A stretch of DNA of 41,776 bases from Lachnospiraceae bacterium. Its GTDB lineage: Bacteria; Bacillota; Clostridia; Lachnospirales; Lachnospiraceae. A model generated the notes under the pieces. The model saw only the letters and a list, made by a program, of their open reading frames with translations, ran no database searches and was not told the DNA's origin. The first letter of the stretch is position 1. Every line of letters starts with the position of its first letter. Below are positions 2,112-24,692 of this stretch, piece after piece. The stretch lies in NCBI GenBank assembly GCA_017436865.1, contig JAFSCH010000067.1, forward strand, positions 1 through 41,776. Direction: 5' to 3'. Position numbers and translations under genes: made by a program.

Positions 2112-4949
2112 TTATCTCCTACGCATTGCTAAAATCATGCTTCTTGTTTGTAATCTTGTCTGTCTGGCTACTTCAAAAGCACTCAACGCCTTTGGGCTTA
2201 TAACATTAATCGTTTGGTTATAGTTACCACCACTATTCCCCACATTTTCCAAAGCTTGGTTTCTTGCACTTCCAGTAAGCGGTGTGACAACTGCTTTTCC
2301 ATTTACCATGGAAAGCAATTCCGGCCCTGCTTCTGCAACCATTGCCGTTCCCTCACGAAGCACTCCGCCTTTTGCCAGTCTTGGCAATTCAAGCATTCCA
2401 ATCGGACTAAGGGACACGCCTGGTATTTCGTTTATAATGTCAATTACTCCATTAATCATTCCTATGAAATTGTTAACAATACCCTCTATTGTTGACAGTA
2501 CGCTGTTAATTGCATTTTTAAATGCATCTCCTACGGCTGTACCGATTTGTACACCGATGTTAACAAAGCAACCTTTAATTTTCTCCCATAATCCCGAAAA
2601 GAAAGAAACCACATTCGCAAATGCATTTCTTATATTAGCCCATGCATTTTGAAATTGAGTCCCAAACCAGGTTCCCACGTTTGCAAATGCCATTTTTATT
2701 TCTGTCCATCTTTCAACAAACCACGGTCCTATCCCTTGGAATATTTCAACAATTTTGTTCCACATATCTATGAAAATCTGTTTTATATCCACGCCGAATC
2801 CTGCAAAAAAACCAACAATATAATTAATTGCTGCCATAATAATATTTTGAGCGAAACTAATAGCATTTTGCAGCGCAGCTTCAAGGTACATGAAAAATCC
2901 GTCAAAATCTCCATGCATAAGAGCCGTGAATGCGCTTATGATATTTGTTACAAAATTAATTACATTCTGAACTGCTGCCATAATAGGAGCTGCTGCTGAT
3001 ATAATTCCGTTTACCATAGCCCCTATATATGTAACTAAAAACTCAAATACTGGTTGTAATGCCACTAGAAGATTATTAAACGCGGTTTTTATCTGCTCAA
3101 TAATTGGTTGCATTTGCAGCCACATATCTGAAAAAGCTGCCTTTACCTTTTCCCACACTGCAATTACTTTGGTTCTGAACTCTTCATTTGTGGCGAATAA
3201 CGTTATTAATGCCGCTACCAGTGCCGCTACAATAGTTATAACAATTCCAATCGGATTTGATTTCATTGCTGTATTTAGCAGTTTTTGCGCTATCGTTACG
3301 CCATCTGTTGTTGTTTTCCATACTTGAAACGCTGCAATCAATCCTTGTATCATGGTTACTACATTCCATGCCAACATCCCGGCTGCGATTCCTGCAATAA
3401 TAGCAATTATTGTTGCACCATTCTTTGATACAAATGCAATAAAATCTTTTACTTTTTCGATTACTGATAGCACAATCGTTTTTATCTGGGGGATTTTGCT
3501 TTTTACTTCTCCAATCACTTCACTAATGACTGGTTGCAATTCCTCTCCTATCGGCTTTACTAAATCCGTTTTAAGACTTCTCCCCAGTTCTGTTATTTGA
3601 TTCCCAATATCATTGTATTTATTATCATTAATTTTCTTCAATGCATCATTTGTGCTTGATATTTCACCCTGGGTATTGATAAGGGCTCGCACTGCATCTT
3701 CGCCCAAATCTTCCCATTTAGTGCCATACAATGTAACACCTAAAATGTTCCTTTGCACGTCATCTTCACATGCAAAAAGGGCATTATTTACAATTGTAAA
3801 TGCTTCTCTTGCACCTTCGCCGCCCTCTGCAAACTTCTTTTTCAATTCATCTGCATCAAGACTCAACGCCTTAAATGTATCATCTGCTGTGCCGTCCTTT
3901 ACCCTTATGCCGAACTCTTTCACTGCATCATTAAGGTAATCAAGTTGGAACGTTCCACTTTTTACACCGTTTGCCATCATATTGAAAGCTTCTTCGGCGG
4001 TAATGCCTAAATCTGCGTAATATGTAGCATATTCTGCCAACTGGTCTGCAAGATCACCATTTTGGTTCAATCCTTTTTGCGCTCCTTGAGCCAAAAGGTT
4101 ATAAGCTTCCTCGGCGGTAATACCAAATTGTTTCATCATGGCATTAACACCACGAATCCCCTCATTTACATCCAAATCAAAGGTATCACGCATTAAAATA
4201 GCTGTTTCTGTGGTTTTTTGTAGCTCTTCATCTGCAAATCCTGTTTGTTGTTTCACATTCGACATTGCAAGTGCAATATCGTTGATATCCTCACCAAAAT
4301 TATTTTTATATATGTTCAAAAGAGTTTTTTCTAACCCTTCAACCTCGGTATCTGCTGCCCCCGTCTGCGTAATTACAGTGTTAAGTGCTTTGTCGCACTC
4401 TGATTCAAAATTAGTAACATATGTGGCGGCTGCCACAAATCCGGCTCCCATCGCTGCAGTAGTTGCCTTTGCCTTTTCACCTAGTCCATCCAGTTTTTCA
4501 CTAAAGGTAGTGGCTTTGTCCTTGGCGTTTTCCAATTCTTCCCCGGACAATTTGGCTTTCTTTCCCAATTCCTCAATGGCTGTATCTGTTTGAAATGCCG
4601 CTTTCTCTAAACCGTCTAGCTCAAGTCTTGTTTTCTCAATTTCACGCTTTAAAGCCCTATATTGTTCTTCTGATACTTCTCCTTTTTGAAATTGTTCCTG
4701 CACCTGGCTTTCTGCTTTTTTCAGAATATCCAATTTTTCCTTGGTAGACGAAATGGCATCGCTCAAAAGCGTTTGTTTTTGTGCTAAAGCTTCTGTATTT
4801 GTAGGATCCATTTTCAAAAGCTTATTTACTTCCCTAAGTTCAACTTGGGTATTTCTAACTTTTTGGTTTACCCCACCTAATGCCTTATCAAGTTTTGTGG
4901 TATCTCCACCAATTTCAATGGTTATACCTTTTATTGTATTTCCGGCCAT
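2112..4949 (-). CDS. Phage tail tape measure protein
   Basis: The 945-residue product sets tail length and later takes part in DNA ejection. Residues 1-160 are charged heptad-rich coiled coil (KLDKALGGVNQKVRNTQ onward). A middle part reads like a TP901-type tape measure core (GFADEELQKTTETAILMRDT; two repeats of ITAEEAYNLLAQG / ITAEEAFNMMANG). Hydrophobic helices fill about residues 500-760, including W..I...F..VGTWF repeats. The C-terminus is a glycine-rich PELLSMVNGKAVVTPLTGS segment. It follows the tail chaperone genes, the normal order. By the usual length rule the tail would be around 140 nm, which is an estimate only. Confidence 0.95.
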   Translation of the reverse strand: MAGNTIKGITIEIGGDTTKLDKALGGVNQKVRNTQVELREVNKLLKMDPTNTEALAQKQTLLSDAISSTKEKLDILKKAESQVQEQFQKGEVSEEQYRALKREIEKTRLELDGLEKAAFQTDTAIEELGKKAKLSGEELENAKDKATTFSEKLDGLGEKAKATTAAMGAGFVAAATYVTNFESECDKALNTVITQTGAADTEVEGLEKTLLNIYKNNFGEDINDIALAMSNVKQQTGFADEELQKTTETAILMRDTFDLDVNEGIRGVNAMMKQFGITAEEAYNLLAQGAQKGLNQNGDLADQLAEYATYYADLGITAEEAFNMMANGVKSGTFQLDYLNDAVKEFGIRVKDGTADDTFKALSLDADELKKKFAEGGEGAREAFTIVNNALFACEDDVQRNILGVTLYGTKWEDLGEDAVRALINTQGEISSTNDALKKINDNKYNDIGNQITELGRSLKTDLVKPIGEELQPVISEVIGEVKSKIPQIKTIVLSVIEKVKDFIAFVSKNGATIIAIIAGIAAGMLAWNVVTMIQGLIAAFQVWKTTTDGVTIAQKLLNTAMKSNPIGIVITIVAALVAALITLFATNEEFRTKVIAVWEKVKAAFSDMWLQMQPIIEQIKTAFNNLLVALQPVFEFLVTYIGAMVNGIISAAAPIMAAVQNVINFVTNIISAFTALMHGDFDGFFMYLEAALQNAISFAQNIIMAAINYIVGFFAGFGVDIKQIFIDMWNKIVEIFQGIGPWFVERWTEIKMAFANVGTWFGTQFQNAWANIRNAFANVVSFFSGLWEKIKGCFVNIGVQIGTAVGDAFKNAINSVLSTIEGIVNNFIGMINGVIDIINEIPGVSLSPIGMLELPRLAKGGVLREGTAMVAEAGPELLSMVNGKAVVTPLTGSARNQALENVGNSGGNYNQTINVISPKALSAFEVARQTRLQTRSMILAMRRR

Positions 4950-16075: not shown

Positions 16076-16990
16076 CTATTCTTCGTCTAATGCATATTCC
16101 CGTTTACGCCGCTTACAATCTTCCAACATACGTTCCAAAATGCCTACTTCCTCGTCATTGAGGTATATATAATATTTTTCAATCATTTTTACGGCGTGAA
16201 GTTTTTTTGCATTTGCCTTTTCTTCTTCTGCGGTGTCAGTATCTGACACATTTTGTGCCTTAGCTTCTTCTTCCCGGCGGTTCTTCTTTTCTTCCACTCT
16301 GGCTTTTATTTCATCACATTTCACATCTTGTCCTGCTGCCGCTTGCTCTGCTATTTCCTTTTGCTCTTCCGGCGGTAACTGACTAGCACTGTAAGCGGCT
16401 GTGATTCCCATTCTTCCTTTCTCAAATTCTGCCTTTACTTCCGGCACGGCTTTGTTATTAATTGCTTCAAGAGTAGCAACCTTTCCGTCACTCTCTCCCA
16501 GGATAGCCACAACATAATCACGAATGCGTTGTCCCTTTTCAAGAACGATAAGCCCCTCTTTTCTTGCCTGGTTTAAAACCTCTTTCCATTCCCTCGCCTG
16601 GTTCATTAGATCATAATCTGTCATTTTACGGTTGAATGTATTACCCACCAGTAAAGCAATTCTAAATTCTAATTCCGTCATGTCTTTATAACGGCAAGGT
16701 ACATTTTCAAATCTGCTTTTTCCCTCTTTCACTAAAATATCCGTACCACTGTATCTTCTATGGCCAGAAGCAAGCCACCATTCACCATTCACACGTCCCA
16801 ATATGAGCGGCTCTTGGATTCCGTCCATTTCAATGGACATAGCCATTTCTTCTAGATCTTCCATACTGTAGTTATTATGTTTCGTAATTACTATATCTTT
16901 GTAATTCAACACTATATCTTTATATTCTTTGTTTTCCCCCACTGCCGCTTTCGTGGTACCGTTCACAATATCTAAAATATTAAATGCCAT
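16076..16990 (-). CDS. parB: ParB/Spo0J-family partition protein
   Basis: A 304-residue protein. The N-terminal ParB/sulfiredoxin-like domain has DLEEMAMSIEMDGIQEPLILGRVNGEWWLASGHRRYSG, containing the GHRRY box. A central helical DNA-binding part (about 130-220) and an acidic coiled-coil C-terminus (EEKKNRREEEAKAQN...) follow. It overlaps parA by 11 nt, the classic partition operon. In a prophage this suggests that the excised genome can be kept as a partitioned plasmid or that ParB serves phage DNA segregation. No parS-like repeat was identified. Confidence 0.92.
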   Translation of the reverse strand: MAFNILDIVNGTTKAAVGENKEYKDIVLNYKDIVITKHNNYSMEDLEEMAMSIEMDGIQEPLILGRVNGEWWLASGHRRYSGTDILVKEGKSRFENVPCRYKDMTELEFRIALLVGNTFNRKMTDYDLMNQAREWKEVLNQARKEGLIVLEKGQRIRDYVVAILGESDGKVATLEAINNKAVPEVKAEFEKGRMGITAAYSASQLPPEEQKEIAEQAAAGQDVKCDEIKARVEEKKNRREEEAKAQNVSDTDTAEEEKANAKKLHAVKMIEKYYIYLNDEEVGILERMLEDCKRRKREYALDEE

Positions 16991-17795
16991 TACTTTTTCC
17001 CCTTTCTTTCAAATCGTGTCCGTAATAACCCACATATTCATCCACAAAACGCTTATAATCCTGCGCTACACTGCTTCGGTTGCTATAATGACAAGGTGTC
17101 ATTTTGTAAATGGTTGCATCTTTTGCTTTTTTAGAATGTCTGATTTTCTGTTCAAATACCAAGCAACCGCTTTTTTCTCGCAACCATATTTCCGCCGCTT
17201 CGCTTGTGTCTGTTTTCTCATAGTCTGTGATAAGAACGCCCGCAATCTTCGCTTTTGGATTCAATGCTCTTATTTGGTTTATCTGCTCCACCATTTCTTC
17301 CAAACCATCTAGGGAATAGGAATCAAGATTTACTGGTATGATGATTTCATCCGTTGCCACCAATGTATTAATAACATTCATTCCCAAATCCGGCGGATTA
17401 TCAATAACGCAAAAGTCATAATGCTCGCTTACTTCTTCCAAAGCTGTTTTGTATCGGTCATGCTGTGCGTGTTCCTGGTCTGCTTTCACTTCAAGTTCTG
17501 CCAATTCCATGTAGTAGTTGCAAGGGATAATATCCAAATTGGGTTCTTTTGTACTTCTAATGTTTCCGGCAATTCTTCCCGTCTTTAAAATCTTACATGC
17601 CGGAGCTTCATTCTCTCGCTCATACACCTCAAAAAGCTTGGAAGCGTTACCCTGCTTGTCATTATCAAATAATAAAACTCTGCTGCCAGGTCTTTTTCTC
17701 TTCTTATCCCCTTCTGCTAACAACTCCGCAAGCGTTACGGCTGTTGTAGTCTTTCCTGTACCACCTTTAAGCTCTACAATTGAAATAATTTTCAT
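16980..17795 (-). CDS. parA: ParA-family partition ATPase
   Basis: Starting at the ATG at 17795, preceded by GGGAGAAAGGGAA, the protein has 271 residues (MKIISIVELKGGTGKTTTAVT). The deviant Walker A is KGGTGKTT at residues 10-17, the A' region is RVLLFDNDKQGNAS, and the switch is FCVIDNPPDLGMNVINTL. ParA drives plasmid and phage segregation with ParB, which is next to it. The overlap of the rep C-terminus with this leader (rep ends at 17812) indicates a rep-parA-parB operon. Confidence 0.94.
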   Translation of the reverse strand: MKIISIVELKGGTGKTTTAVTLAELLAEGDKKRKRPGSRVLLFDNDKQGNASKLFEVYERENEAPACKILKTGRIAGNIRSTKEPNLDIIPCNYYMELAELEVKADQEHAQHDRYKTALEEVSEHYDFCVIDNPPDLGMNVINTLVATDEIIIPVNLDSYSLDGLEEMVEQINQIRALNPKAKIAGVLITDYEKTDTSEAAEIWLREKSGCLVFEQKIRHSKKAKDATIYKMTPCHYSNRSSVAQDYKRFVDEYVGYYGHDLKERGKSNGI

Positions 17796-17811
17796 TTCCC
17801 TTTCTCCCTTC

Positions 17812-18684
17812 CTAATTTCGCACCATCCGGGCGTATATATAAAATGCTGCATTCACCCCATTGTATTTCACTTCGGCATCTAAAAATTTATATCCTGGAT
17901 ATGCCTTTTCCATCTGCTTCTTTAGTTCTTCATGGTCTTTTACCATCATTTCAACCTTAGTCTTCTTAAATTTCGAATAACTACGCTTTGGCATATCCGG
18001 CTTTTTTAAATTCTTACTAGAACACCATCTTTTTGTACCATGTGGATTGTTTGATATATAGGTTGCTAATCCTGTTATAATAAAATCATCATCGGGTTTA
18101 ATTCGTCTTGTATTTGGTCTTTCACACTTCCCCCACATTTCTTCTAACTCGTCACGATCTACCCCATCACCCGTCATAAGAATGTGAAAGTGTGGTCTGG
18201 TATTCCCATCTGCTGCAATTATGTAAATATATTTAATATTTTCCATTCCTGCTTTCTTTCTTTTGCGATTGATACGACGAATGAAATTTTGCACATCCTT
18301 TTGCGCTTTCTTCATATCTTCCGGGTAATGTGCTTCATCCCATCCAAAGGTTGCCCATATATCTCCTTTACCAAAATTTATATTTGCAAGGCGTATCAGA
18401 TAACGTCTTGCATTCTTGTCATTCAGATTCCTTTGTGATGGTTTGGTTTCCCTTCTCTTTTCCGTCACTGGCATATTCTTTTTATCTTTAAATGACGGGT
18501 ACACCTGAGCTTCCAATAACACCGTACCACTCTTGATGTTTTTAGACTTGGTTGTAGTAGTTCTATATAGGCAATCTACCTTTCCCTCTTTCAGTAGACG
18601 TTCCAATTCCCATTCATCTAAGTTCTCACATATCTTTCTATATGCTTCCTCATAATCGTAATCATCATAATATTTTCTTCTCAT
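17812..18684 (-). CDS. rep: HUH-endonuclease replication initiator (rolling-circle Rep, G2P-like)
   Basis: A 290-residue protein with the HUH core RPHFHILMTGDG (His165, His167), an upstream IWATFGWDEAHYP motif (109-121) and a candidate catalytic tyrosine, Tyr209, in GLATYISNNPHG. The order (motif 1, HUH, Tyr) is that of rolling-circle Reps of the inovirus G2P/ORF2 type, which nick an origin and start strand displacement. It heads a rep-parA-parB operon. Its ribosome binding site (AAGGTAGGGGC, 18697-18687) is perfectly complementary to the loop of a candidate small RNA upstream. HUH initiators are unusual for an HK97-type siphophage of Firmicutes. Confidence 0.88.
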   Translation of the reverse strand: MRRKYYDDYDYEEAYRKICENLDEWELERLLKEGKVDCLYRTTTTKSKNIKSGTVLLEAQVYPSFKDKKNMPVTEKRRETKPSQRNLNDKNARRYLIRLANINFGKGDIWATFGWDEAHYPEDMKKAQKDVQNFIRRINRKRKKAGMENIKYIYIIAADGNTRPHFHILMTGDGVDRDELEEMWGKCERPNTRRIKPDDDFIITGLATYISNNPHGTKRWCSSKNLKKPDMPKRSYSKFKKTKVEMMVKDHEELKKQMEKAYPGYKFLDAEVKYNGVNAAFYIYARMVRN

Positions 18685-18686
18685 GC

Positions 18687-18697
18687 GCCCCTACCTT
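18687..18697 (-). promoter_or_regulatory. rep ribosome binding site, target of the candidate RNA
   Basis: The minus-strand sequence AAGGTAGGGGC ends 2 nt before the rep ATG and contains two overlapping purine-rich cores (AAGG and GGGG). The plus strand here (GCCCCTACCTT) is identical over 11 nt to 18995-19005, the loop of the small RNA candidate, so that RNA could pair with this site without gaps. Confidence 0.75.
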
Positions 18698-18832
18698 ATG
18701 TCACACCCCATTCCTACTTCCTAACCAAATCCATTATGTATATATAATTTTATATATGGTTGGTTTGTTAATACCCATTACAAGGACGGGAAAGAGGTAT
18801 GTTTTTTCTCTAAATCCATTAAAAATGCGGCT

Positions 18833-18940
18833 CTATTCCTTGCTTACAGCTATGATTCCACACGTAAACAAGAATAGTAAACCGCTCATTAGCAAAGTAA
18901 TACTGCTAAGCACTATATATAGTAAAATTATACTTTCCAT
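18833..18940 (-). CDS. Small membrane peptide in the rep leader
   Basis: A 35-residue frame (MESIILLYIVLSSITLLMSG...) with one long hydrophobic stretch (about residues 4-31) and a lysine-glutamate end. An AGGAA lies 1-5 nt upstream, too close to be an ideal ribosome binding site. It lies between rep and the 47-residue gene, co-directional with both. It may be a real small membrane protein or a by-product of low-complexity sequence. Confidence 0.35.
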   Translation of the reverse strand: MESIILLYIVLSSITLLMSGLLFLFTCGIIAVSKE

Positions 18941-18956
18941 TTCCTATGTATTGTGC

Positions 18957-18962
18957 TATAAT
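18957..18962 (+). promoter_or_regulatory. Extended -10 promoter for the small RNA
   Basis: TGCTATAAT (18954-18962) is a consensus extended -10 element on the plus strand. A -35-like TTTCCA lies 17 nt upstream. There is no plus-strand gene downstream, only a hairpin and T-run ending about 57 nt after the predicted start near 18,969. Confidence 0.65.
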
Positions 18963-18968
18963 GGATTT

Positions 18969-19026
18969 ATTAAGTTGCTTCCAGGTTGTTTTAGGCCCCT
19001 ACCTTTACAACCTGGTTTTCTTTTTT
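18969..19026 (+). ncRNA. Candidate ~58-nt regulatory RNA with anti-Shine-Dalgarno loop against rep
   Basis: Read from the plus strand: an extended -10 promoter, about 12 nt of leader, then CCAGGTTGT (18981-18989) paired with ACAACCTGG (19007-19015), a 9-bp perfect stem, followed by TTTTCTTTTTT. The 17-nt loop holds GCCCCTACCTT (18995-19005), an exact 11-nt complement of the rep ribosome binding site. It lies antisense to the leader if rep is transcribed from upstream, so it could act in cis or trans. Rolling-circle plasmids commonly use such countertranscripts for copy control. No expression evidence exists here. Confidence 0.65.
18981..19026 (+). terminator. Intrinsic terminator of the small RNA
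   Basis: A 9-bp perfect stem with a 17-nt loop is followed by a T-run interrupted by one C on the plus strand. The minus strand has no U-run after the hairpin, so the orientation is clear. Confidence 0.8.
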
Positions 19027-19060
19027 ACTGTAGTATGTACTTGTCCACAATATCCACAAT

Positions 19061-19204
19061 CTATCCCACTTTTCCCGGTACTGCTGCCATTGCCGCCATA
19101 AGTGAAACATCAAGCGTAACGTGCTTCATTGCTTCTCTCAAATCCTTAGTATCATATATTCCTAATTTCTCTAACTCTTTCTTTAGTCCTTCTGTTTTAC
19201 TCAT
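19061..19204 (-). CDS. Hypothetical small phage protein (47 residues)
   Basis: A 47-residue frame (MSKTEGLKKELEKLGIYDTK...) with a GTGAGGT leader 9-14 nt before the ATG. The first part is a charged helix and the end is MAAMAAVPGKVG. It is co-directional with and 16 nt downstream of the 104-residue gene, and too short to show in usual ORF lists. Family not recognised. Confidence 0.55.
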   Translation of the reverse strand: MSKTEGLKKELEKLGIYDTKDLREAMKHVTLDVSLMAAMAAVPGKVG

Positions 19205-19220
19205 CACATATACCTCACTT

Positions 19221-19535
19221 TCATCTGTATATCTTAACCGTAAAATGATATAACGGTGGCTCGCTCACAACCGCTTCACGATTCTTATAGATCATAAGGG
19301 TAAAACAATCCTGCCCCTCGTCATCCAGGTCGCGACGAGCAATCGCTTCAAATCCATAACGTGAATTTAACTTTGCACCCATAACACGTTCCTGCAATTT
19401 TGCAATCTCCCTGGTGCCCGTGGTTACTCTTTCTTCAAAATTCTGCTGCCACTTTTGAAATGTCTTTTTCAAATATTCCAAAAAATCAGGCTCCACAACT
19501 CCGTTAATTGGCTGATATTCTTTTATATTCGCCAT
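19221..19535 (-). CDS. Hypothetical phage protein
   Basis: A 104-residue protein (MANIKEYQPINGVVEPDFLE...) with a helical middle (FQKWQQNFEERVTTGTREI) and a beta-rich C-terminus (QDCFTLMIYKNREAVVSEPPLYHFTVKIYR). It overlaps the preceding gene by 32 nt. It lies upstream of the rep module among early genes. I do not recognise its family; early regulatory or host-takeover proteins are typical here, but this is only context. Confidence 0.6.
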   Translation of the reverse strand: MANIKEYQPINGVVEPDFLEYLKKTFQKWQQNFEERVTTGTREIAKLQERVMGAKLNSRYGFEAIARRDLDDEGQDCFTLMIYKNREAVVSEPPLYHFTVKIYR

Positions 19536-19776
19536 CCTTAGTTCCTCGCTTTCTTCTGTTTAAATATGCCTTTCTCCGAGCTGCTGCTTTCAATTCCGCA
19601 TCCACTCTCTCGGTTGTACTGGATATATACCAATAATGATTATTCCTATCTTTATAGTAGTGGAACACAACACCTTTTACTCTTTCAGTTCCTATATATA
19701 TTCCATCCGGCTTGCTTCCCGGTGTAATGCTCCATGCATTTTCACGGGCAATTTTTATTTCTTCTATTTGTGTCAT
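19504..19776 (-). CDS. Hypothetical phage protein
   Basis: From the ATG at 19776 the product has 90 residues (MTQIEEIKIARENAWSITPG...). It contains a beta-like VKGVVFHYYKDRNNHYWYISS segment and a basic helical tail (AAARRKAYLNRRKRGTKDGE). In-frame starts at 19812 and 19836 exist; none has a well-spaced ribosome binding site, so the start is uncertain. It is the first gene of the minus-strand replication run, just across from the plus-strand winged-helix gene. Function unknown. Confidence 0.55.
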   Translation of the reverse strand: MTQIEEIKIARENAWSITPGSKPDGIYIGTERVKGVVFHYYKDRNNHYWYISSTTERVDAELKAAARRKAYLNRRKRGTKDGEYKRISAN

Positions 19777-19884
19777 AGTTATACATACTAAATTCCTCTC
19801 TTTTATTTGCATGGGTGGTCTACTGCCATCCACCACATGATGTTATTGTTTTCTCTGTTTGATTAGTAAAATATTTCGTTTGTG

Positions 19885-19893
19885 TGATATAAT
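19885..19893 (+). promoter_or_regulatory. Extended -10 promoter of the membrane winged-helix gene
   Basis: TGATATAAT is an extended -10 element about 49 nt before the start codon at 19942. No good -35 is seen at the usual distance, which fits extended -10 promoters. It points against the surrounding minus-strand early genes. Confidence 0.6.
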
Positions 19894-19941
19894 CCCTTTG
19901 CAAGGTGACTAGACCACAATAATTTGAAAAGGAATGCTATT

Positions 19942-20283
19942 ATGGATAATGCAGTTATTTACAAAACGTTAAAACACTTCAAAAATAAGGATGTAGTTAC
20001 ATCAGATGAACTAATTCGCAAACGCTACTTTCATAAAAATGGCTCTGAAAGCCTTAGTTCTCGTCTAAACGAATTGCATATGTTAGGTTATATTGCAGCC
20101 AATAAAAAGAATGGTGTTATCACTGCCAAAATTACTCCTGTCGGAAAAAACTTTATTACAGATTATAAATATCAACGCCATCTAACAAACCTTGAAAAAT
20201 GGATTGAACGATTTATAGGTTTTGTTATGGGTGTTATTACCTCTGTAGCAGCCGGTATTATTCTTCATCTTTTGAATATCTAA
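19942..20283 (+). CDS. Membrane-anchored winged-helix protein
   Basis: Starting at the ATG at 19942 (AAAGG 9 nt upstream), the protein has 113 residues. Residues 1-70 read as a winged helix (VIYKTLKHFKNKDVVTSDELI, SLSSRLNELHMLGYIAANKK, VITAKITPVGKNFI). Residues 88-113 are one hydrophobic helix (FIGFVMGVITSVAAGIILHL). It lies alone on the plus strand between minus-strand early genes and overlaps the tail of the convergent small membrane gene by 4 nt. With its own promoter it is probably expressed in the lysogen. Its target is unknown. Confidence 0.72.
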   Translation: MDNAVIYKTLKHFKNKDVVTSDELIRKRYFHKNGSESLSSRLNELHMLGYIAANKKNGVITAKITPVGKNFITDYKYQRHLTNLEKWIERFIGFVMGVITSVAAGIILHLLNI

Positions 20284-20378
20284 TATAATCCCATTACTTT
20301 TACAATCATGATTCCAACAATCAGACCCAATATGTAAAAGACAATTGCTATTGGGTCTGTACCTTTATTGTTATTCAT
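20280..20378 (-). CDS. Small single-pass membrane protein
   Basis: I choose the ATG at 20378, preceded by GAGGG at normal spacing, giving 32 residues (MNNNKGTDPIAIVFYILGLI...); the longer frame has no better site. Residues 10-30 form a transmembrane helix. It follows the 71-residue membrane protein on the same strand and may be co-transcribed with it. No family recognised. Confidence 0.5.
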   Translation of the reverse strand: MNNNKGTDPIAIVFYILGLIVGIMIVKVMGLY

Positions 20379-20398
20379 TGCTTTTCCCTCTTCACGTT

Positions 20399-20614
20399 TC
20401 ACATTATCCATCCATATTCCGTAATGTATATACATGCACAAACAAATGCATATATCATAACTACGCCCCATATTCCCATAAGGACACGATGTGGCAGATA
20501 ACATTTTTTAGTTCCAAAGGCACGTATGATAGCAACACACGCAATCCCCATGTATGTAAGGCATCCGCCAAGGAATACCAAAGCTAATATTCCTAATATC
20601 AAAACCTCTTTCAT
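20399..20614 (-). CDS. Small two-helix membrane protein
   Basis: A 71-residue protein with two hydrophobic helices (about 3-29 and 45-66) separated by a short basic loop (RAFGTKKCYLPHR). A GAAAGGAG site precedes it. The leader is one copy of the duplicated 50-nt element at 20622-20673. It lies in the minus-strand early region downstream of cro. A superinfection-exclusion or membrane-stress role would fit phages generally but is not shown. Confidence 0.6.
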   Translation of the reverse strand: MKEVLILGILALVFLGGCLTYMGIACVAIIRAFGTKKCYLPHRVLMGIWGVVMIYAFVCACIYITEYGWIM

Positions 20615-22800: not shown

Positions 22801-22970
22801 AAAATAAAAGGCCCCAGGCGGCAACCTGAAACCTTTTACATAGATTGTAACCCGTAAACCAAATGGCTTATGGATAGTTCAACCCTCGACAAGTTGAATT
22901 ATACCATAAGCCCCCAAATTTATAAAGGGCTTATTTTTTTATGCCCTTTTTTAAGAAAGAGGTCTTATAT
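22801..22970 (+). promoter_or_regulatory. Stem-loop array and putative attenuator upstream of the integrase
   Basis: The 170-nt gap holds consecutive structures. SL1: TAAAAGG (22805-22811) with CCTTTTA (22832-22838) and an inner CAGG/CCTG. SL3: GGCTTATGG (22865-22873) with CCATAAGCC (22904-22912), plus TAGTTCAAC/GTTGAATTA inside. SL4: ATAAGCCC (22906-22913) with GGGCTTAT (22927-22934), then T7. SL3 and SL4 share one arm and exclude each other, which is the logic of an antiterminator and terminator. The signal sensed is unknown, and it is not a riboswitch class I recognise. Confidence 0.6.
22906..22940 (+). terminator. Intrinsic terminator before the integrase
   Basis: An 8-bp stem ATAAGCCC/GGGCTTAT with a 13-nt AT-rich loop is followed by seven T. 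It ends the repressor-Uma2 transcript unless SL3 forms first. The integrase start codon is 30 nt further on, so integrase expression depends on readthrough. Confidence 0.75.
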
Positions 22971-24692
22971 ATGGCTAGAACTGTATCATTTCACACACTG
23001 AATGACCCAATCGTGGCTTTATATGTCCGCGTATCTACCGGGTACCAGGTAGACAAGGACAGCTTACCACATCAGAAAAAGGAATTAATGGCATATTGTA
23101 AACATATCTTACATATCCCGGAGAACCGCATCGAAATATTCGAGGATGCCGGGAAATCTGCAAAGAATACCAAACGCCCTGCATATGAACGCATGATGCA
23201 AAAGGTGCGCTCCGGGGAAATCTCCCATGTACTGGTCTACAAAATTGACCGTGTAAGCCGTAACCTGGTTGACTTCTCCCTTATGTATGATGATTTTAAA
23301 TCTAACCGTGTAACATTCATATCCTTGAATGAACAATTTGACACATCTAGTGCCATCGGAGAAGCGATTTTAAAAATCATCCTAGTATTTGCCGAACTGG
23401 AACGAAAAATGACATCAGAACGTGTTACAGACATTATGCTAGGACGTGCAAAGGATGGCTTATGGAATGGTGCCAATGTTCCCTTTGGCTACCAATGGGA
23501 TTCGGTTATTGAATTTCCTGTTGTCGATGAAAAAGAAGGTCCTATTGTAAAAATGATGTATGATATGTACGAAAGAATAAAATCTTCTACTAAAATACGT
23601 GATTACCTTAATCATAACGATATTCCTACCAAACGTGGTGGCGAATGGACAAGCAAGACAGTCGCGGATATTATTAGAAATCCTATCTATAAAGGAACCT
23701 ACCGTTATAATTACCGTGAAAGTGCCCGTGGACGTATCAAGCCCCAGGATGAATGGATTGTGCTTGATGATGTATTTACACCAATCGTTACCAAGGAACA
23801 ATGGGAATACTGTAATAAAACTATGGATTCCAACGCAATTGCCCGTAACAACATGGGCAGTCAATCCAAGAAAAAATATGACCATGTATTTGGTGGCTTG
23901 CTTCATTGCGGCGTTTGTGGCTCTAATATGATTTGTGATAAAGACCGCGCCAGGTCTAACGGCTTTGCACCATCAATATATCGTTGTGGTAATCGATGGA
24001 GAAAGAACACTTGCCGCCCAAAGAGCATATCAGATGTAACTCTTGGTCCTTTTGTATTCAACTATATAAAAAATGTTATCCAGGCAACAAAACAAACTGC
24101 TGCCATACAAAACATTGAAACCTTGGAAAGTATTCTTTTAGCCGGGGCTGAATTTAACAATGTAATTGGTATTGATCGCGCAGGGCTTACTGCCACATTT
24201 GAAGCACTTAAAAATTCAGTATCAACGGCAACTTATAAACCAATCCCCCTGGACACATCCGCCCCCGTGATTAGCAAGGAAGATATCCTAACCGCCGAGC
24301 TTGACAAAAATAACAAAGCCCTGGAAAGGCTTAGAAAATTATACTTATTTGATGAGAACGCTATGAGCGAAAAGGAATACTTAGAAACCAAGCAATCTTT
24401 GGAAGTAAGAAATGCCCAAATCAATAATGAGCTTGCAGAACTACGCCAGGATGAAGCCGACCCAGGAACCGCCATTGGTTTTATAAATTCCGCTTCCTCT
24501 TTCCTGGTAGCCCACAAACTGAACCAAGCGGAACATATAAAATATAGTGAGTTTGCCCCACTTGTGGATGATGCAGTATTGAAAGATTTTGTTGCTTCTG
24601 TGATTGACCATATTATTATCCTTGATGGAATGGTGGACACTATTGTTTTTAAGAACGGATTAACTCACAAATTCATTAGAAAAGAGAAATAG
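22971..24692 (+). CDS. int: Large serine recombinase (phage integrase)
   Basis: Starting at the ATG at 22971 (AAAGAGG upstream), 573 residues. The catalytic domain is at residues 14-155 (VALYVRVSTGYQVDKDSLPHQ, nucleophile Ser22; LVYKIDRVSRNLVDF). A Recombinase domain follows at about 160-290 (FGYQWDS, IRNPIYKGTYRYN). The zinc ribbon is near 305-345 (LLHCGVCGSNMICD, YRCGNRW) and a coiled-coil segment lies in the last 150 residues. It carries out attP x attB recombination, here into miaB. It is separated from the prophage end by a two-gene convergent operon. Confidence 0.95.
   Translation: MARTVSFHTLNDPIVALYVRVSTGYQVDKDSLPHQKKELMAYCKHILHIPENRIEIFEDAGKSAKNTKRPAYERMMQKVRSGEISHVLVYKIDRVSRNLVDFSLMYDDFKSNRVTFISLNEQFDTSSAIGEAILKIILVFAELERKMTSERVTDIMLGRAKDGLWNGANVPFGYQWDSVIEFPVVDEKEGPIVKMMYDMYERIKSSTKIRDYLNHNDIPTKRGGEWTSKTVADIIRNPIYKGTYRYNYRESARGRIKPQDEWIVLDDVFTPIVTKEQWEYCNKTMDSNAIARNNMGSQSKKKYDHVFGGLLHCGVCGSNMICDKDRARSNGFAPSIYRCGNRWRKNTCRPKSISDVTLGPFVFNYIKNVIQATKQTAAIQNIETLESILLAGAEFNNVIGIDRAGLTATFEALKNSVSTATYKPIPLDTSAPVISKEDILTAELDKNNKALERLRKLYLFDENAMSEKEYLETKQSLEVRNAQINNELAELRQDEADPGTAIGFINSASSFLVAHKLNQAEHIKYSEFAPLVDDAVLKDFVASVIDHIIILDGMVDTIVFKNGLTHKFIRKEK

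Follow-up and report, generated by a model that had tools for sequence, protein, structure and literature searches.

A predicted small RNA of about 58 nt, encoded upstream of and opposite to the replication initiator gene (rep) of a Lachnospiraceae phage element, carries in its hairpin loop an exact complement of the rep ribosome-binding site (RBS), and very probably acts in trans as an anti-Shine-Dalgarno RNA that represses Rep translation. The sequences themselves show the individual elements, a hairpin conserved among relatives and, in near relatives, joint change of loop and rep leader; transcription of the RNA, its pairing in the cell, the repression and the physiological role are what we infer from them.

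The stretch analysed (the window), 41,776 nt long, comprises the entire contig C73 of a draft genome with 169 contigs and 7.68% contamination. Terminase, portal and tape-measure genes lie within 2–13 kb of the window, ParA-like, ParB-like and rep genes at 16–18.7 kb and a serine recombinase gene at 22941–24692. Genes of cellular families (aldehyde dehydrogenase, HI0933-like, PhoH, YqfD, pyrimidine nucleoside phosphorylase) stand beyond the recombinase, from ~26.8 kb to 41.3 kb, hence one end of an integrated prophage probably lies within the window, and the combination of phage genes, rep, recombinase and flanking cellular families makes integration the most likely state of the element. No direct terminal repeat of 10–200 bases was found in the window. 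By its sequence Rep is a rolling-circle (HUH) initiator, matching PF23343 (Table 1) and the phage profiles phrog_3584 (replication initiation protein, 5.5e-69) and phrog_3419 (rolling circle initiation, 4.6e-6), with HFH at residues 165–167; R163, H165 and H167 are invariant in 16 aligned relatives. Two ORFs upstream of rep (104 and 110 aa, 19836–19221) share its orientation and have no Pfam match. In the loci L002, L003 and L040, ORFs of 36–38 codons occupy the position that a short hydrophobic ORF has in the window.

Table 1. Features of the rep region and the predicted small RNA in the window.
Feature	Position	Strand	Basis or remark
parA-like gene, downstream of rep	16980..17852	-	PF13614, 2.6e-40
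rep, rolling-circle-type replication initiator, 290 aa	17812..18684	-	PF23343, 5.6e-8
Small-RNA target AAGGTAGGGGC, rep ribosome-binding site	18687..18697	-	Exact complement of the loop
Putative rep promoter, TTAACA-17-ATTATA	18743..18771	-	Promoter scan
Conserved block CCCGTCCTTGTAATGGGTATTAACA, candidate double-strand origin	18766..18790	-	Role inferred
Hydrophobic ORF of 35 codons, possible gene, divergent from the small RNA	18833..18940	-	Between small RNA and rep
Promoter-like site of the small RNA: -35-like TTTCCA (18934-18939), 17-nt spacer, extended -10 TG-C-TATAAT (18954-18962)	18934..18962	+	Sequence, promoter scan
Predicted small RNA, ~58 nt	18969..19026	+	Start inferred from -10, end from T-run
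Terminator-type hairpin: 9-bp stem, arms CCAGGTTGT (18981-18989) and ACAACCTGG (19007-19015), loop 18990-19006	18981..19015	+	Stem covaries in relatives
Anti-Shine-Dalgarno loop segment GCCCCTACCTT	18995..19005	+	Repeat of the rep-RBS complement

The initial annotation had described an extended -10, a 9-bp hairpin and a T-run, and all three are borne out at 18934–19026 (+), with the T-rich tail at 19016–19026; position 18957, where it placed the beginning of the feature, belongs to the -10 hexamer, and the RNA itself would span ~18969–19026. The promoter-like site scores highest of the eight such sites in 16800–20400, a scan that by itself proves nothing as shuffled sequences average 12.8 sites. 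At the corresponding position in relatives, 15 of 25 non-redundant loci show 10–12 of 12 consensus matches, a level reached by 0.15% of 2000 random 50-nt stretches; nine matches were counted in seven loci, eight in L065 and L051 and seven in L046. The predicted folding energy of the 58-nt RNA is -16.6 kcal/mol (z = -3.67), which none of 200 shuffles equalled. Our terminator scan omits this hairpin because the 17-nt loop exceeds its 3–8 nt range. Searching the whole window against Rfam 15 at gathering score gave no match of any kind, and relaxing the threshold to E up to 10 over 18500–19200 gave four weak, unrelated matches only.

One further repeat was observed in this region. The sequence ATAATGGATTT(A) lies at the -10 and start of the small RNA (18958–18969) and recurs inverted twice upstream of rep (18727–18737 and 18811–18821), one of these copies being near the predicted rep start. 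The copies are possibly a shared operator; inspection of L002 by eye did not reveal them.

The loop segment was said to recur exactly upstream of rep, and it does: GCCCCTACCTT has exactly two copies in the 41,776-base window, at 18687–18697 and 18995–19005. One further site with a single mismatch lies at 4504–4514 (-); with up to one mismatch allowed, 0.42 sites are expected by chance, and none of 100 shuffles reached three. On the minus strand the rep start reads AAGGTAGGGGC-GC-ATG, with the ATG at 18684. The proposed 11-nt pairing with the site just before this ATG is confirmed as a complement, and rep is the strongest partner for the loop when 1160 candidate starts are compared (every ATG, GTG or TTG in ORFs of at least 40 codons, nested starts included), at -22.7 against -17.4 kcal/mol for the runner-up. 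Scanning the whole window, the RNA's own complement excepted, gave -23.4 for the rep site and -21.2 kcal/mol for the next region, at ~13150 (-). After opening costs of 4.0 for the loop and 3.5 for the leader site, the net pairing estimate is -13.1 kcal/mol. Ribosome-binding sites look alike, hence a C-rich loop pairs somewhat with many of them.

From its putative promoter, the rep leader would be ~52 nt long and clear of the small RNA; by eye, an arrangement like TTAACA-17-ATTATA is also present in L002, L003 and L008. When the window leader was folded at four lengths, the RBS site fell within a 14-nt hairpin loop in two folds and was unpaired, outside the hairpin loop, in the other two, and across 25 loci the predicted structural context varies and is not conserved. 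The conserved block CCCGTCCTTGTAATGGGTATTAACA overlaps the putative rep -35. Its strict motif was found in 27 of the 38 loci that have 150 nt or more of upstream DNA, visual inspection showed variants in 10 of the remaining 11, and the block persists upstream of rep even in loci without the small RNA. Unexplained ATATATTGCGTAATATG-type repeats occur in the rep leader region of L004, L053, L055, L058 and L067. Locus L157 (G035:C1:2751000-2758000) contains two tandem rep copies ~1.6 kb apart, with a third elsewhere in the genome.

Comparison gives the stronger argument that the repeat is no accident. Relatives of Rep were collected from viral contigs, one Clostridia genome, family and order genomes, and phage and plasmid records. 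Comparing leaders with loops over 143 loci gave matches of at least 9 nt in 26, of which 20 have the hairpin form (several being copies) and six are 9-nt matches of a different shape. An alignment and covariance model were built from 14 examples, in which all eight stem pairs form in every sequence (100% of cells paired), seven of the eight have changed on both sides in a compensatory manner, and the covariation score is 0.680 compared with 0.171 for shuffled sequences. The model matches the window, itself a training sequence, at 18946–19029 with 82.5 bits. Over 87 sources it gave 33 matches at E up to 1, comprising 15 training sequences or their copies and 18 new loci, several near-identical to one another; the 54 sources with no match are mostly more distant or cut-off Rep loci. 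L117, a training sequence outside this set, was matched in a separate search of 38 sources, where weak matches, at 25.4 bits or below (L104, L120, L118 and others), were disregarded. In all 32 placed matches the small RNA is encoded upstream of rep and on the strand opposite to it, 280–2169 nt separating match edge from rep start; overlap with the rep mRNA depends on where rep transcription starts. The promoter and terminator of its own that mark a trans-acting anti-Shine-Dalgarno RNA are present as sequence elements only, a promoter-like site and T-rich tail accompanying the hairpin in most relatives.

Dropping loci with identical loop plus leader (L045, L035, L056, L060, L062, L054 and L052) reduced the 32 placed loci to 25 non-redundant ones, 13 training and 12 new; earlier copies (L001, L036, L037, L038, L039 and L042) had been dropped before counting. 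Little or no DNA is available upstream of the Rep match in L044, L048, L049, L068, L073 and L102, and the model search of loci left out L023–L034 and L131–L143. Where several rep starts were candidates, those used for pairing, ranking and permutation were chosen by hand from the Rep alignment.

Loop and leader change together among the near relatives of the window. In the Rep tree the window adjoins L002, L003 and L040 (Rep 86–87% identical), from which it differs at two paired positions in both loop and leader: the pair reads GCCCCTACCTT/AAGGTAGGGGC in the window and GGTCCCCACCTTT(A)/(T)AAAGGTGGGGACC in the three sisters. Additional paired differences set apart L002 from L006, T-type from C-type leaders, L059 and L053, the corresponding loops and leaders being GTTCCCCACCTT/AAGGTGGGGAAC in L006 and L041, CTCCCCGCCTT/AAGGCGGGGAG in L059 and TCCCGCCTTA/TAAGGCGGGA in L053. 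All nine loci of the window clade have an exact loop–leader helix of 10–14 nt with rep first among starts, and in these nine, as in L008 and L053, no other stretch of the locus binds the loop as well, among 32-nt stretches tested at step 4 with the RNA's own complement excluded. Over all loci, the exact match between loop and rep ranges from 5 to 14 nt. In 20 of 25 loci the loop has a YUNR (U-turn) motif on its 5' side, and the five loops without it each match rep exactly over 7 nt or less; the link with pairing is loose, as L064 and L051 (5 and 6 nt) retain the motif.

Ranked against all starts of its own locus, rep comes first in 14 of 25 loci, second in two, 3–8 in four (L067, L055, L065 and L004, with ranks 3, 4, 6 and 8 respectively) and only 26–40 in five (L061, L066, L057, L009 and L064), where loop and leader match poorly; among the 12 new loci, it is first in L058 only. 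The expectation of the initial annotation that the loop of an anti-Shine-Dalgarno RNA aimed at rep would covary with the rep leader is therefore upheld by the paired changes in near relatives and weakened by the poorer fit in distant clades, where loop and leader have changed independently in the five clear misses.

Paired with their own leaders, the 16 distinct loops reach an energy sum of -328.2; permuted sums average -277.9 (sd 10.6), and none of 100000 permutations was as good. Loop positions in this test came from the model rather than from the leader, although training sequences make up 13 of the 25 non-redundant loci, and the figures overstate the effect because relatives are not independent. 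The five window-clade loops taken alone are in their best arrangement, equalled by 842 of 100000 permutations (about 1 in 120 being the minimum possible), and the own pairing of five other loops is near the best (1691 of 100000 as good). An initial permutation, in which the own pairings summed to 113, permuted ones averaged 74.6 and none of 200000 was as good, was biased in favour, since its leaders and hairpins had been picked by best match. Only six of the 16 loops pair best with their own leader; the loop of L117 fits the L003 leader better than its own, and in both L117 and L043 loop and leader drift apart at the helix edge.

Most Rep relatives below ~45% identity are without such an RNA. 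The presence of Rep does not by itself predict the RNA: a Rep match was found in 51 of 397 family genomes, and five of the 51 also have an RNA model match, these five being the genomes with the closest Reps except for G157 (71% identical, no RNA); the family-wide search matched six genomes altogether, five of which carry rep. Only the window's own genome was matched among 391 class genomes at E up to 0.001, a search with stricter filters in which weak members may be missed. Five loci with Reps 49–71% identical act as natural controls, having no model match upstream of rep: L155 (the L007 locus), L047, L151, L063 and L152, the last with only ~1.1 kb of upstream DNA and a weak match (15.5 bits) downstream of its Rep match. 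All five are without the AAGG(T/C)RGG leader, which is present in 19 of 25 RNA-bearing loci (16 by a stricter pattern, the other three by eye). The leaders of L047, L151 and L152 are nearly the same, hence the controls amount to about three independent cases.

A match in genome G205 (L149/L156) was not counted, with an E of 0.0077 for the single genome (0.00045 over 38 sources) and no Rep match; at E 0.0077 over 397 genomes, three to four chance matches are expected. At L156 2281–2365, where this rep is absent, there is a promoter-like site and a hairpin with an anti-Shine-Dalgarno loop TAGCTCCTCCAAG containing CTCCTCC, which may be a chance or parallel case.

In the mechanism we propose, the ~58-nt RNA would be transcribed from a promoter of its own that lies upstream of rep and points the opposite way, and would end at its own terminator hairpin, the loop displaying the C-rich complement of the rep RBS. 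It would then diffuse to the separately transcribed rep mRNA and pair with its ~52-nt leader over 11 nt. The contact could be loop-to-linear or loop-to-loop, the predicted folds making a loop–loop start possible in the window. Pairing over the RBS would block ribosome loading and keep Rep low in proportion to element copy number, since RNA dosage would rise and fall with the number of copies, as described for plasmid antisense control in pMV158 (PMC4485353). In an integrated prophage, rolling-circle firing from the chromosome would be prevented, and one RNA copy would presumably have to suffice; in an extrachromosomal state the RNA would act as a copy-number brake and could confer incompatibility or superinfection immunity. 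Its role may be in copy number, lysogeny or both.

A classical countertranscript is the alternative that survives best, although we think it unlikely. A long minus-strand transcript reading through from the ORFs at 19836–19221 into rep would be fully complementary to the small RNA, and the RBS repeat would be a second contact. Both ORFs share the direction of rep, no minus-strand terminator was found between them and rep in a scan of 3–8 nt loops, and in L004, L055, L061 and others the Shine-Dalgarno sequence (SD) of the divergent gene falls within the RNA promoter, so that its mRNA should begin over the RNA. However, the TTAACA-17-ATTATA-like arrangement near rep recurs in relatives and would yield an mRNA without an antisense stretch, and the stem varies freely while the loop–leader match is kept in near relatives. 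A read-through mRNA could also titrate the small RNA, which would be compatible with trans-acting anti-Shine-Dalgarno control.

The divergent gene differs between loci. Its product is transglycosylase-like by eye (223–235 aa), a protein of 102–108 aa or one of 147 aa, and in L055, L061, L008, L004 and others its SD lies inside the promoter spacer of the small RNA. As a partner of the loop it ranks first among all starts in L067, L055, L061 and L066, second in L057, L008 and L059, third in L004, L058 and L065, and fourth in L064, with helices of 11–13 nt in L067, L055, L061, L066 and L057. The loop fits it better than rep in L061, L066, L057 and L064, and fits neither in L009. These ranks could mean that the RNA mainly serves another target (host mRNAs or the divergent gene, be it a small hydrophobic ORF, transglycosylase-like or the 102–108-aa protein) and that rep pairing is secondary. 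We consider this improbable as the divergent ORF does not pair in the window clade (rank 82 in L005, 36–289 in seven others), where rep is first in all nine loci, no divergent ORF was found in L117, and the gene ranks poorly also in L010 (15), L050 (13), L009 (28) and L053 (78). Part of the divergent-gene match is moreover generic, because AAAGGCGGG-type SDs recur in those phages. Where the divergent gene fits better, the target may have shifted or both genes may be controlled. A bolder reading, which we regard as less likely than not, is an undescribed prophage RNA family in which one interchangeable hairpin loop silences ribosome-binding sites, its target having moved in the course of evolution from rep to the divergent gene or embracing both; if so, the replication-immunity type of each phage lineage would be set by a few paired bases.

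The remaining alternatives carry little weight. The two copies are direct DNA repeats, and several distant loci have a similar motif in the promoter spacer too, but it is very improbable that they are protein sites (operator or iteron) rather than an RNA–RNA contact, given that one copy is part of a hairpin loop and the other of an RBS, that the stem changes in a compensatory manner and that a third exact copy is absent from the window. The hairpin adjoins a rolling-circle-type rep and might be a replication structure (nick site or single-strand origin), yet its loop varies among relatives whereas the block beside rep is nearly constant, and a promoter-like site and T-rich tail go with it in most loci, which makes this even harder to sustain. 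Although 11-mers recur by chance in whole genomes, a chance repeat beside an ordinary terminator is scarcely credible, being contradicted by the recurrence of the unit with changed sequence in relatives, and the DNA that separates the RNA from the rep start, ahead of the hairpin, showed no plus-strand ORF of a known family.

If trans-acting anti-Shine-Dalgarno control of rep is correct, it would amount to antisense braking of a rolling-circle-type phage initiator, the target being reached by a loop repeat rather than by overlap, and would suggest how a prophage with such a replicon avoids firing from the chromosome. The pair of loop and leader is short, can be separated and has changed in nature on several occasions, hence reporter tests of specificity and of immunity between related phages are feasible. 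A covariance model now exists for an RNA without a match in Rfam 15. No report of such an RNA was found among the titles and abstract openings listed, where coverage is thin for subscription journals.

The c4 RNA is processed from the ant transcript, whereas the RNA described here comes with a promoter-like site of its own and only one terminator-type hairpin. In phages P1 and P7, c4 is described as carrying complements, likely in loops, to the RBS region of the ant mRNA, blocking its translation (PMC12197685). The likeness lies in a phage RNA with a loop complement (here 11 nt) to the RBS of a phage mRNA; the best-pairing start here is however rep, a replication initiator, and the c4 target is the antirepressor ant. 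A second relative in kind is RNAII of pMV158, a small terminator RNA which acts against a rolling-circle initiator: it is reported to be 48 nt long, with a 17-nt 5' tail and one terminator hairpin, and to inhibit RepB translation (PMC4485353). RNAII is, according to the same account, complementary over its full length to the mRNA just upstream of the repB start signals, is without U-turn motifs and has a loop of secondary importance (PMC4485353), whereas our match of 5–14 nt (11 in the window) is in the loop, 0.28–2.2 kb from the rep start. The YUNR motif is described for antisense systems that start by loop–loop pairing, such as R1 and pIP501 (PMC4485353). Recognition by a hairpin loop is common to these and to our RNA, and the 14-nt leader loop in two of the four window folds would allow a similar start, although it is not conserved; R1 and pIP501 antisense RNAs are cis-encoded and their pairing extends into the stems, whereas here only the loop matches the rep leader. 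The sgm-sRNA of SGI1 is described as having a role in mobilization and as acting differently from classical regulatory sRNAs (PMC9299015). Our small RNA is akin to c4 RNA and to pMV158 RNAII and is assigned to neither, as it has no Rfam match and differs from both in target and geometry.
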